Part shown: in pieces, positions 9,842 through 61,800 of the stretch
How the letters are laid out: every line of letters starts with the position of its first letter
Numbering within the stretch: position 1 is the stretch's first letter
Assembly: GCF_026151205.1 (NCBI RefSeq)
Contig: NC_087074.1
Span: 7,853,726-7,917,725, forward strand
DNA from: Bolinopsis microptera
Taxonomy: Eukaryota > Ctenophora > Tentaculata > Lobata > Bolinopsidae
DNA length: 64,000 nucleotides
Reading direction: 5' to 3'
The notes under the pieces: model-generated
What the model was told of the DNA's origin: nothing
The model's database searches: none
What the model saw: only the letters and a program-made list of their open reading frames with translations
Program-made: the position numbers and the translations under genes

Positions 9842-10134
9842 CCTAGTTTACTGTATCTTAAGATCTTAACCCGTTTTAAGATGATTTGATGTATGGATTG
9901 TGGAACATGTAAGATTGGAATTTGCTACAGTTATTTTACTACAAGTATTTTGCTACGAGTGGTTTTTTTTTGCAAATCTCAAAATTTATCCTTGTAAATT
10001 TTAAGTTTTGATTCATGAACTTTTGTTTAGGTTGACAGATTTGACAGTATCGAGTGCTTCTATTTGATGAATTATCACAAAGTATCCCCTAATTTACAAT
10101 TAGCAGCTAAGTTCCAATAAATGCTGGACAGGTG

Positions 10135-11975
10135 ATGTCGGCACCTATTCTTGTTAAGAACTTGAAACAACAACTGGACCGGCTCTTCAGTCAGCTAGCA
10201 GATCTAGAAGAATGCAGGTATGCCACAGTGCGCGGCTCATTCTCAGATGTCTTTAGGGGACCCCTTTACAGTCTACATACTGTGTACTGTTTACAATATG
10301 AATAGTACGAGTTGTTTGTCATTTCTAAGAGTTTCGATTATGACTATGTTCCTCTGAACTCTTCATTGTTTCATAGAAAGTTTTCTGTACTATCTTTTTA
10401 CCGATGTTTATTTTTGTGTTGCAAACTGTGATATTCAATGTGTTGTGAAAAAAACTGTAAAACAGGGGGGGGGGGGGGGGGATAACATTTTTTTTGTTTT
10501 TTTTTGTTTAGGTAAAAGTAGTTTTGCCTAAAAACATTTTAAACTCAGGGAAGATTTGGATGATGAGGAGTACGAAGAAACAAAAGAAGAAACATTGGCA
10601 CAGTTAAAGGAATTTCAGGACAGCTTGGATAGAGCTACCTCTGGTAACATAACTTTGGAGGATGAATTGTCCTCACTCAAGTTAGTAAGTAGGTTCTTCT
10701 CCTCGTTCAGCCTACATGTCTGATAACTGCGTCCCTAAATTTGCCTAAATTCCTGATCTGTAATAAATCAAAACTCTAAAATATCCTTCTCAGGCTACTC
10801 AAGCTGCTATCAGCAACGCGTTTAAAACTCCGGAAGTCATGAGACTATTCGCTAAACAAGAACCTGCCCAGCTCAGAACACTACTCACACAGGTATTGTG
10901 GACTTTTACAGAAAACGTTTGGCTTTACATTCCACATTCAGGGGTTTGAATCGTGTTTTATTCCTTACGAATTGATTAATTAATGGAATTTGGAAATAAG
11001 CTTTGGTGAAGATTTTGTGGGATGTTTAAAAATTCTTAATTTTGTTCATATTTTCTGAACATGAAGATTGAAGAAATAACTTATTAAGTTATTTTGCGAC
11101 CTGATGTTGTTAAAGTTTACATAGTCTTCTAATCTTGGGATATAATAATTCTGATTATTACCCCAGCTAGACCGAGATGTAGTATTAGGAAAGAGAACAG
11201 CAGAGGAAAGTAAACAGGATAAGATAGAGATACTTACAGCTCTCAAGAAACTGGGTCAACAGGTGCAGAAAAATAAAATACTTGTTCTTTTCACCAGTCA
11301 TCAAACATCGCTAAATAGATAATCCGCGCTATAAATATGATTAGGGACTGTAATTTTTTTTAGGGATTGTAATTTTATTGTGTTTTTTTTAATCTTTTCT
11401 GTTATTTTTGTATGCTTGTTTTTTCAGATCAGCAATGATGAAGAGTTGTTTTTGCAAAGCTCTGTGAATCTTCAAACAGTCTCCTCAGGAGAAGGTATAT
11501 ACTATATTAGAGCAACTCGATTTCAAAAAAGCTAACAGTGTAAACTGCAACAGATCTAGTATCTAGACACTAGAGGGATGAACTTTTCTCCGCAAAAAGA
11601 ACATCCCATTAAATTGATACGTGTATGAAATACTACGTGCTAAATTGTGCACTAAATTGACACGTGTTTCTACAAAACTGAACAGTGAACGGGGAATCGT
11701 TTAAGATAACTTTTGTTCCCCTCGCGCTCGACAGAACTAGAAAGTACTTACGCTATTTTACTTTTTACTGCACGATACGCTGAAAAAAATTGACTCTAAT
11801 TCATGAAGTCTACAAGACCCACTATTTGCGGGGATATAAATCGTGCCTACAGTTATTGTTTAAAAAGACTCCTAACAGTAACATGTAACAGTCGTGTGGC
11901 AATTCTTTTAATGTTATACTTACAATGTTTTCAGTTGTCGGAGATCACGTTCTGGGCCTGGTGCAGAACAAATAA
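10135..11975 (+). CDS. LZIC: LZIC homolog (leucine zipper and ICAT-domain protein)
   Basis: Six exons join in phase: 10135-10217, 10549-10684, 10794-10892, 11167-11262, 11428-11494 and 11935-11975 (173 residues; the human protein is about 190). The match is near colinear: [20 protein letters not shown] (leucine zipper), [80 protein letters not shown]. The C-terminal half is an ICAT/CTNNBIP1-like domain, known for beta-catenin binding in ICAT, although LZIC itself is reported not to bind it. The ATG sits 3 nt after an AG (10130-10131). Intron 1 carries a long G-run near 10466, and intron 5 carries a dispersed repeat. Confidence 0.95.
11560..11770. repeat. Diverged dispersed repeat in LZIC intron 5
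   Basis: It contains ATTGATACGTGTATGAAATA and GGGGAATCGTTTAAGATAAC, which match blocks of the 9391-9841 element and of 57735-57850. The ends are not clear here. Confidence 0.5.
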
Positions 11976-58035: not shown

Positions 58036-58816
58036 AGGCCCGGGGGTCTGCTTACCAGCTTACCTGTTATGTAAAACTCGTCACACAGCAGTCAGCACTG
58101 AAACTGAGCCCAATACAATTACAATACAATTAAAAACCGTTTATGGTTTAGAAATGGAATTCTTACAAATTAATGCGCGCTGGGTTTTATGTCAAGGTAA
58201 ATATTCGCGCTAGAGCTTTTAACTAAATAATGCTGTTCGGTATCCGCGCCACAACAATATACTGTGGATCGCGCTTCAGTGTTACCACTATTTTGATTCA
58301 GGTTCAGGTTTACCGGTTTACGGTGAACAAGAATAGAGCGACTGTTTCACTTTTTAGTAGCACAGTCGGTGAATCGGATCTTAATCTCTTGGATTTAAGT
58401 CTACAATTTTAAGTTATTTTCGTTCCAAGGAGCTGCGAACTACAGACTCATACGGAGTATAAGTTCAAGATCAGCGTTCACTAAAATGCAGTTAAATTGA
58501 ATCGAAGTATTAAAATATAAATATAAATTCAATATGCATGTAAGTATAATCAGTGGGGAATCAGTGGCTAAACGTAGTCGTAACTAATTGTGCCGCTCTA
58601 CGCTAAATCTTACTGCTACACACCTTAAATGTTTCTTATGTCCTTTTAAAAAAAGGAAAAAATGACACCCCCACAATTTCTTACTAGCAGAACTCGAATA
58701 TCAATTTAGAGTTAATAAAGTTTAATAAATATGTTACTATCCAAGCACTTTTTATCGTATTATTCAAAGTATGCGAAATACGTTATCATAATTTCACACC
58801 ACAGCATTCACATTAA
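58036..58816. other. Intergenic 3' of the TRPA gene, no gene seen
   Basis: No conserved coding sequence recognised on either strand. Confidence 0.5.
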
Positions 58817-61800
58817 TCAAGCAGGTCCAGATTCTGTGTCAATAATTCTACTTTTCCTTATCTCGATCTCCTCAGAGTTAACGTTTTTGTCGACCTGCAT
58901 GGTGTTTACATCGATCTTAGCGCTCAACTGGTTGAGTGCTGTTACGATTCGTATAACTTGTCCCTGGATCTTCTTCAGTCTCAATTCTCCATCACCGTCA
59001 ACCTGCGGTAAATTTGAGATATATAAGATCACATGACCTCTTATTCGCATTTTCACATGGTTATTATGGTGGAATAACATTATATGACGAAAGAATTTAA
59101 CATTTGTCCTCCAGCAAAAAAAACACAATAACCGGAACTTTGATGACCATATTGTGGTGTGTGTTTGCTATAGGAAACAAGACCTTGTATCCACACAATA
59201 AAACACATGATTCGTAAATTATAAATTGTTCAGTTCTAAATCTTGAGGAATTAACAGAGAGTAAACCAAAAAATACCTGACGACGTCTAGACACGATATC
59301 GACCACACAGCTGCCTCTGAAGTCGTATATTGTACCACCAAACAATTTGGACAATGAATAGACTACCTTGTTTGGGTAAAGTTTTCCCTGAAAAGTGGGG
59401 TTGTTTACAGAGTGTTAATTGAGGTCACATATTTTACGACTAACAGCTATGCTAACAGTCCCATTGAGGGGGCCAACGAATGACGATATGCTGTCAGAAC
59501 CGAAATACTTTTATTCCTATACCACACTTTCCTATATGATGAAAACACATCGAAGGCAAATTCAGTCATAACTAGGTAGCATACCTATGAACTGAAATGT
59601 TAAACTAGATTTCGATCTTCATGAAAGTTTTAATTACTAAAGTTTCTCCCCATTCCCCAATCAATGTTAATAGCCTTAATTGCTAAATTAGCCAGTAGTA
59701 AGCAATCAGCAGTCCAGCTGCATCTAACCTTTATTTAAAAGTGTTCATAATTAAGATATTGTGTTTCTCCCCTATTAGTGATTACTCATAAATTAATTTG
59801 TTTATAACTTCAGAGTATAGAGGAACATCACGCAAACGGGGCTAAGGAATGATAATAATGATGGCAATCTGACATACAAATGTAACCCTTTGTGATAAAA
59901 TTTGGAAATTTGTAAACTAACGTGAGGGTAATGAGACACCGCAAAAACATCGCAGAATGAAAGTTTTCCAACTATCTTCTCCGCTAGAAATATTTGCTCG
60001 ATCCTCTCTGCTGATCTCCGCAGCTTGGAGGTTTTCCTCGTTTCAGCCACATCAAGAATAGCCAAACCAGTCTGTAATAAAAGATTTTGTTATTTTGTCA
60101 GAGCTTCATATTTAGGTGGAGTTCAGATTTATTATATTATGTAGATTAAAGAAATTTTCACTGGATAGTGGATAAGGCTTGGTGTATTTTGTTGGTTGGT
60201 GATATCGATTATATCTTCCATTGATGATCAACAAATTTTTGCTGGAGAAATTAGGCTATTAATTGATGCATTTTGTTGGTTGGTGATTTTGTTGGCTGGT
60301 GATTGTTGATCAATTATTGATTGCATGACTAAGAAAGACAAGAAATTTACGGATGTAACCAATATTTGGAATATTGTTGGTAATAAATAATTAACAAATT
60401 TAAATCTTTTGAACTTGTACGAAGTTTCAAATAACTCACAAAGTAATCAACACTAAAAACTCACAAAAAGACATTTCAATATGAAACATCAGTTCTTTAA
60501 AAAAATAAGCACCACATATTCACAGATGAGTTCTATCCAAAGAAAACCAAGGATGTTTCAGCAGGTACTTATACTCAATCCTTTCCAGTGGATCTCTCAC
60601 CAGACAAAGTCTGAGGAAACTCCTGCACATAGGAGAAACTTTAACAATACGTGGTTTACAATCCACAACCTCCTCTGAACTTCCGAAAGGGTAGTACCCC
60701 ATTACCATCTTGTAAACCAGGCAACCTAGAGCCCAAGTTGTTCCTTCTATCGGGTAAAAGTATCCTTTGTAGAAAAACTCTGGTGGAAGAAATACTTCTG
60801 TTCCGCGACCGATTGTGTAGGGGGTAGACCTGTCGTATAGAGAAGCTGAACCAAAGTCGATGAGTTTGATCTTGTTTGTGGTTGTGTCGATCAGGATGTT
60901 CTCGTCTTTGATATCCCGGTGATCGATACCCAAGGAAAGACAGTAAGTGACGGCATCGTGTATTTGGATGAAGATGTCTCGAGCTAAACTCTCACAGAGG
61001 CGTTTCTTTTCTTCCACAAAGTCAAACAAGTCCATCGTGTTTGGCAGGTACTCCATGAAGATGTTCCAGTGGAATTTGGTCTCTAAATAACCGTGCGTTT
61101 GAACAATGTTGTCGTGCCTCAGATTCTTCAAACAGTACAGTTCAAGAGGAAGAATCCCCGCTGTTGACTCAACAAGGACACTGACTTTAGATTTCTCCAC
61201 TCGTTTGACGGCTAAAAGTTTTTGGTCTGCTTTTCGTGAGACAAGGTAAACTTTTCCAAATCCTCCCTGACCCAACTTCTTCTTGATCTTGAAGAATTGC
61301 TTGAACTTGAAAAGATGAAGACACTCGAGGATACGTTTAAACATTTCAAATCGATAAAACTAAAAGATTGTAACTACGGAGAGTTCGTAAAATGGCAAGT
61401 TGGATAATGGGATATGTGTCCAGAGGTAAGACAGTTATATATAGGGGCTATAAGCTTATGTTGCTGATTGGATGGCGGATTATTCGATCCAGTACGTCAC
61501 GCAGTCTCGTTTAGCACATAGCTCAATTCGAGAAACATGATACACTAAGTTCCGTCATCCAATCATCAAGCCATTTCACCTAATCAGACGGTCATGTTGG
61601 TGTCACGTGATGTTATTCTCCTGTCTCGAGTTTGCACGTGACGACCATCACGCACAATGTTTCCCAAATGTTGTCGAATCACGTGATAAGGTTACATGAC
61701 AACAATCAGGAAACATGTGGGGGTAGAATGAGACAATAGATTAACTGAATGAGGGTAAAAGCAGATTGGGTGAGCTAGGAAGTAAGTCTGAAACATAAAC

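Follow-up and report, generated by a model that had tools for sequence, protein, structure and literature searches.

Acceptor-like AGs beside start codons in Bolinopsis microptera, and the spliced-leader RNA gene arrays and leader-bearing retrocopies of its genome

The stretch analysed here (the window) comprises 64,000 nt of the genome of the ctenophore Bolinopsis microptera (NCBI RefSeq assembly GCF_026151205.1, contig NC_087074.1), or C3:7853726-7917725 in our contig labels; genome-wide searches used the assembly of 264.65 Mb in 232 contigs. Start codons were placed for 13 genes, and Pfam and PDB searches gave identities for nine of these: SPT6 (from one exon), LZIC (through a match to ICAT), TTC5, two metallophosphoesterases, an HtrA-like protein, a NARG2_C protein, an Erv1/Alr protein and a kinase. 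Two of the starts, those of phosphodiesterase copy B and HtrA, are absent from the list in an earlier note made from the letters of this DNA, whereas those of nested genes A and B are that reader's own placement; in each nested gene the spliced frame is open and there is a GT-AG intron. An AG precedes many of the start codons closely (see the table), and we consider it almost certain that these AGs are, for the most part, 3′ splice sites for spliced-leader (SL) trans-splicing.

Candidate acceptor AGs and the leader relic in the window. Positions are those of the window; the distance is from the end of the AG to the ATG, and scores are from the 3′ splice-site matrix described in the text.
Feature	Position	Strand	ATG	Distance (nt)	Score	Remark
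Candidate acceptor AG, LZIC	10130..10131	+	10135	3	-0.1	no pyrimidine tract
Candidate acceptor AG, TTC5	17330..17331	+	17335	3	1.4	slightly below threshold
Candidate acceptor AG, metallophosphoesterase (phosphodiesterase) copy A	19339..19340	+	19344	3	6.0	
Candidate acceptor AG, metallophosphoesterase (phosphodiesterase) copy B	22500..22501	+	22523	21	4.2	best AG; not on the earlier list
Candidate acceptor AG, gene with ATG 26469	26455..26456	+	26469	12	3.6	
Candidate acceptor AG, gene with ATG 28045	28041..28042	+	28045	2	4.7	
Candidate acceptor AG, CCCH/NARG2_C gene	29148..29149	+	29152	2	3.9	
Candidate acceptor AG, Erv1/Alr gene	32210..32211	+	32228	16	3.1	
Candidate acceptor AG, SPT6	33225..33226	+	33227	0	-1.8	poor by matrix
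Candidate acceptor AG, nested gene A	40627..40628	-	40624	2	0.8	open spliced frame
Candidate acceptor AG, nested gene B	44363..44364	-	44362	0	1.6	open spliced frame
Candidate acceptor AG, protein kinase	61360..61361	-	61344	15	1.0	
SL1 mature leader relic	42895..42937	+				2 mismatches in 43 nt; joined straight to body CCTGAAGATGGCG..., no GT donor

An AG ends 0-3 nt upstream of eight of the 13 starts, compared with 22.5% of the 2,213 other ATGs in the window on both strands (binomial p = 0.0028). The eight distances of 0-3 nt and the three longer ones (the genes at 26469 and 32228 and the kinase) given in the earlier note were all correct on recount, and the pattern of AGs at start codons is confirmed as real. 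A 3′ splice-site matrix was built from 45 internal intron acceptors, and an AG was counted as scoring if it lay above the 20th percentile of these training acceptors (a threshold of 1.5). Scoring AGs were found within 3 nt upstream of 4/13 starts (null 2.0%, p = 1e-4) and within 16 nt upstream of 6/13 (null 8.0%, p = 3e-4).

The earlier note had proposed searching the assembly for an SL RNA gene in which the leader is followed by GT and an Sm site; such genes are present as three types, each in tandem arrays, with the Sm site assigned by motif. A search with the core of the leader of Hormiphora californensis gave 15 and 20 matches, where the reversed control gave 16 and 16, and since the counts are similar these matches are mostly chance; five of the 16 core loci read (L005-L020) were leader-like, namely L011-L013 on C13, L014 on C80 and L015 on C6, and the search thereby brought up a tandem array on C13. 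This array (C13:12855243-12903701, L021-L025) holds 43 leader copies in 50 kb with a spacing of mostly 0.87-1.04 kb, and the 20 kb of it that were tested with Rfam contain ten 5S rRNA genes. Its units carry many indels per copy, resembling raw or unpolished reads, unlike the clean units read on C3, C5 and C1; the indels are probably an assembly artefact. A pattern of leader plus donor occurs at 166 places in the genome and at none in the reversed control; among the 100 places listed, most lie in arrays on C3 (591-bp period), C5 (∼858 bp), C13 (two places) and C1 (434 bp; a second leader). The array of a third leader is located at 1.04-1.05 Mb of C5 and has a period of 428 bp. In some of the SL1 arrays the units alternate with 5S rRNA genes, which are present in L070, L072 and L075 and absent from L069, L071, L073 and L074, the SL3 loci lying outside this test.

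In the clean arrays SL1 is 43 nt in length (AGTTTTAATACTTTCAACACTACTATATAACAAATAATTTGAG), SL2 is 46 nt (AGTTTTAAACTAATTACAACACTACAAATCTATTACATTTATTGAG) and SL3 is 45 nt (AGTTTTAAACTATTTTCACAACTACAATTAAATACATTTATTGAG). SL1 shares 39 of 44 positions with the leader of Hormiphora and has the same AATTTGAG end; SL2 and SL3 are each identical at 35 of 44 positions and finish in ATTTATTGAG, so that they have only the TTGAG end in common with the end of the Hormiphora leader. Each of the three aligns to that leader better than all 1,000 of 1,000 shuffles. The junction of leader and donor reads ...TTGAG/GTAAG in all clean units of all three types that were read, and every leader is followed by GTAAGATTAAGTTC(C/T)AATGTGT, a stem, the motif CTTTTGG and a terminal stem-loop; in one SL1 unit in L075 the motif is short by one T. 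By its motif and its place between conserved stem-loops, CTTTTGG is a putative Sm-like site. When five distinct genes are compared (three are SL1 variants), pairing extends to 96.3% of the cells of the stems, a value reached by 0/500 shuffles, although the structure was picked from folds of the very sequences scored; sliding it by 1-3 columns lowers the pairing to 33-57%. The structure covaries, with four pairs altered on both sides (5/500 shuffles as high). A small nuclear RNA-type promoter, the proximal sequence element (PSE) AAACNCAAGGAAA, is found exactly at -57/-58 in two of three U1 genes and two of seven SL loci (both SL2), with the U1 locus L004 dropped for having nearly the same flank as L001 and SL3 not included; this is suggestive of a PSE common to SL RNA and U1 genes.

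Leaders are also found on retrocopies that can be compared with their parent genes. In the parent gene L068 (C3:14105323) the first exon is preceded by ...TTGTTCTAG, ending in ...TTCTAG. L066 is the same gene minus two stretches of ∼700 and 180 bp, which we read as introns, and L067 aligns to L066 and likewise lacks both. In L066 and L067 the full 43-nt SL1 replaces the outron of L068 with an identical joining base. For an EMC6-family gene there is an intronless copy, L117, with SL1 and an A-rich tail, and a 10-bp A-rich repeat at this locus may be a target-site duplication. The first 75 nt of L117 have a single other match, L118, which is leaderless and has ...CATCAG at the junction point; the similarity stops after ∼78 nt, at a GTAATC donor in L118, and the later exons of the L118 gene were not found within the 1.5 kb examined. 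In all three retrocopies of these two genes the leader thus replaces all of the sequence upstream of the parental AG, and because they carry SL1 in place of the parental outron at this position, the leader was joined at the genomic AG in RNA.

A second line of evidence comes from the exchange of leaders on one and the same body, the sequence downstream of the leader. Three bodies with identical first 14 nt were found with both SL1 and SL2 in a sample of leader copies from C1 (described below). The body of a long interspersed nuclear element (LINE) with an endonuclease domain occurs at 25 places in the genome. The 20 copies fetched share one junction, at which 12 carry SL1, four carry SL2, three carry an SL3-like leader (assigned by eye; the script scored these three and the leaderless copy as 'none') and one is leaderless with ...CCATAG; L119 and L120 have common flanks and may be a single insertion. 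At four of the remaining five places, L109 and L110 carry SL1, L096 carries SL2 and one adjoins a listed SL1 place. The leaders are interchangeable at this one junction. Three bodies have start points that differ, by eye, by an upstream AG (L105 versus L058, L099 versus L082 and L101, and L086 versus L055); alternative acceptors would give such shifts. Read from these DNA copies of RNA, of two genes and a LINE, a leader common to unrelated mRNAs is joined at a genomic AG.

The SL RNA arrays and the leader-bearing retrocopies at genomic AGs support the presence of the trans-splicing mechanism in this genome. Pre-mRNAs would have an outron at their 5′ end; an SL RNA of ∼125 nt comprising the leader exon, the GTAAG donor, a stem, the Sm-like site and a terminal stem-loop would donate a leader of 43-46 nt, and the spliceosome would join this leader to an AG that in many cases lies only a few bases before the ATG. 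Tandem arrays encode at least three such RNAs, some of the SL1 arrays being interleaved with 5S rRNA genes. That the arrays are transcribed, that their RNAs bind Sm proteins and are capped, and that each of the window's AGs is used is what we infer from these features; the AG enrichment is compatible with window genes whose own AGs may serve as trans acceptors. The proposal of the earlier note that most mRNAs here are trans-spliced is favoured, for the genes as a set, by this enrichment and by Hormiphora, in which no fewer than 56% of Iso-Seq reads carry the leader (PMC8527503).

Several observations pull the other way. All of the evidence is from DNA. The cut-off of 0-3 nt was set post hoc, after the genes had been seen, and when nested genes A and B are excluded the enrichment weakens to 6/11 (p = 0.021). 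The training acceptors of the matrix were picked by eye. A pyrimidine tract is not found at every site: at the AGs named in the earlier note, LZIC, SPT6, TTC5, nested gene A and the kinase fall below the threshold, with LZIC and SPT6 being poor acceptors by the matrix. HtrA lacks a convincing site, with a weak AG 39 nt upstream. The PSE is exact at none of the five SL1 loci, and the remaining six loci (U1 and SL1) carry 3-4 mismatches. A simple test detected no target-site duplication at L066 and L067, and a search for leader-bearing copies of two of the 13 window genes (the first exons of the genes at 26469 and 28045, each single copy in the genome) found none. Some of these points would suit a spacing of AG and ATG that arises by chance or from start-codon context, with no tie to splicing: an AG within 0-3 nt is frequent by chance, the threshold followed the genes, the count of 6/11 is only modestly unusual and LZIC is tract-free. 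However, the full count of eight of the 13, the scoring AGs within 3 nt and an SL machinery that was established independently of the window leave little room for this explanation, which we regard as improbable.

Still less probable is that the AGs end ordinary cis-spliced 5′-UTR introns lying right before the start codons. The AGs do look like cis acceptors, as the scoring AGs within 16 nt illustrate, and single genes in the window could still carry an upstream cis exon; yet the leaders of the retrocopies are absent upstream of the parents in the DNA examined while matching tandem SL RNA genes elsewhere, and a single LINE body takes three different leaders.

Leader copies are not confined to the arrays. 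With up to three mismatches allowed, and with the SL RNA gene arrays included in the counts, SL1 is found at 1,728 places in the genome, SL2 at 1,108 and SL3 at 216, against 0, 0 and 0 in the reversed controls. From the exact matches listed for C1 we took a sample of 80 loci (54 SL1 and 26 SL2); the SL2 array, an SL2 gene that had been read before and a small number of close pairs were excluded. These loci carry 86 leader copies, of which 77 have no GT next to the leader; one of the nine with GT has the SL RNA intron, so that 85/86 lack it. The bodies downstream fall into 56 distinct 14-mers, and 14 of these are found at more than one of the 80 loci. The relic in the window lies between nested genes A and B, within an SPT6 intron (exons as read in this analysis), and its CCTGAAGATGGCG body is also found behind SL1 in several sampled loci. 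In a scan of the window with SL1 and SL2 the best other ungapped match has 15 mismatches, and therefore no SL1 or SL2 relic is seen upstream of the intronless window genes. That the dispersed leaders instead belong to SL RNA genes numbering in the hundreds, or are first exons that neighbouring genes encode in cis, would have a parallel in the Hormiphora gene clusters with shared first exons and the 718 genomic leader sequences of that species (PMC8527503), but is made very unlikely by the scarcity of GT and the near absence of the SL RNA intron in the sampled copies, by the recurrence of bodies and by the two gene retrocopies without parental introns.

Under SL trans-splicing, retrotransposon RNA would pass through the same machinery, and reverse transcription of leader-bearing RNAs would scatter mature leaders, one of them into this window. 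We lean, by a narrow balance, towards retrotransposon RNA being routinely trans-spliced, with any of the at least three leaders acquired anew in each cycle, and towards most of the ∼3,000 leader places being datable fossils of trans-splice junctions. If so, the leader sequences counted in Hormiphora and Mnemiopsis would mostly be such fossils too, and capping or translation of retroelement RNA may require the leader.

Some further features of the leader copies were noted. L038, L050 and L051 are head-to-head leader pairs with starts ∼45-65 bp apart, all three with the CCTGAAGATGG body, and further such pairs occur among the genome leader matches listed. In L131 and L138 partial leader units stand in tandem directly upstream of a leader, as if expanded or added repeatedly. 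Close to the relic in the window, an ORF at 42030-42419 resembles by eye a Penelope-type GIY-YIG segment, for which a Pfam search gave no match, and the flanks of this ORF (41521-41610 and 42660-42775) appear to be long inverted repeats.

Multiple ctenophore SLs are said to have been described by Derelle et al. in 2010. SL addition in ctenophores is common to that study and to this one; it was EST-based, without genomes from which to trace the origin of the leaders (as cited in PMC8527503). Ctenophore SL trans-splicing is known, and genomic leader copies have been counted in two species, 718 in Hormiphora and 491 in Mnemiopsis (PMC8527503); the SL RNA gene arrays and the reading of dispersed leaders as fossils are added here. 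Hormiphora is alike in leader length and in having hundreds of genomic leader copies (PMC8527503), whereas in Bolinopsis three leaders are tied to SL RNA arrays, some of them 5S-interleaved, and the sampled dispersed copies are mainly retroposed relics. In dinoflagellates the leader likewise tags retroposed cDNAs in DNA, with retrogenes that carry DinoSL relics (PMC6050394); here the genome is that of an animal, the leaders are three alternatives and at least one LINE family is tagged. In Hydra ∼30% of transposable-element Iso-Seq reads have an SL (PMC12220107), so SLs on transposon transcripts are shared, but the evidence there is RNA and here it is DNA insertions. We found no published report of leader relics or of 5S-linked SL genes in ctenophores, most subscription literature being outside the search.

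Among animals SL trans-splicing is patchily distributed, and the ctenophore lineage split off close to the base of the animal tree. Where trans-spliced RNA has left fossils in DNA, acceptor sites and the choice of leader can be read off without RNA; such fossils might be dated by divergence and, compared across ctenophore genomes, they bear on the age of the mechanism and on the interchangeability of leaders. For annotation they carry a warning, as many of the leader copies in a genome are something other than SL RNA genes.

Turning to the rest of the window, ten consecutive genes from LZIC to SPT6 lie on the plus strand (10135-55530), nested genes apart, and from TTC5 onward seven of the eight gaps from stop codon to next ATG are below 1 kb by our coordinates. 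This run is a candidate for co-transcription; operons were unreported in ctenophores as of PMC7986045. TTC5, both metallophosphoesterases and the HtrA-like, CCCH/NARG2_C and Erv1/Alr genes (17335-32680), as well as the kinase (60520-61344), have a single-exon look. Near the end of the gene at 26469 there is, by eye, a short tandem repeat of GTGAACAGTGA(C)CA (27222-27400). At 62934-64000 lies a near-perfect palindrome with inverted arms of 533 nt that are 99% complementary and separated by a 1-nt spacer; it may extend beyond the end of the window.

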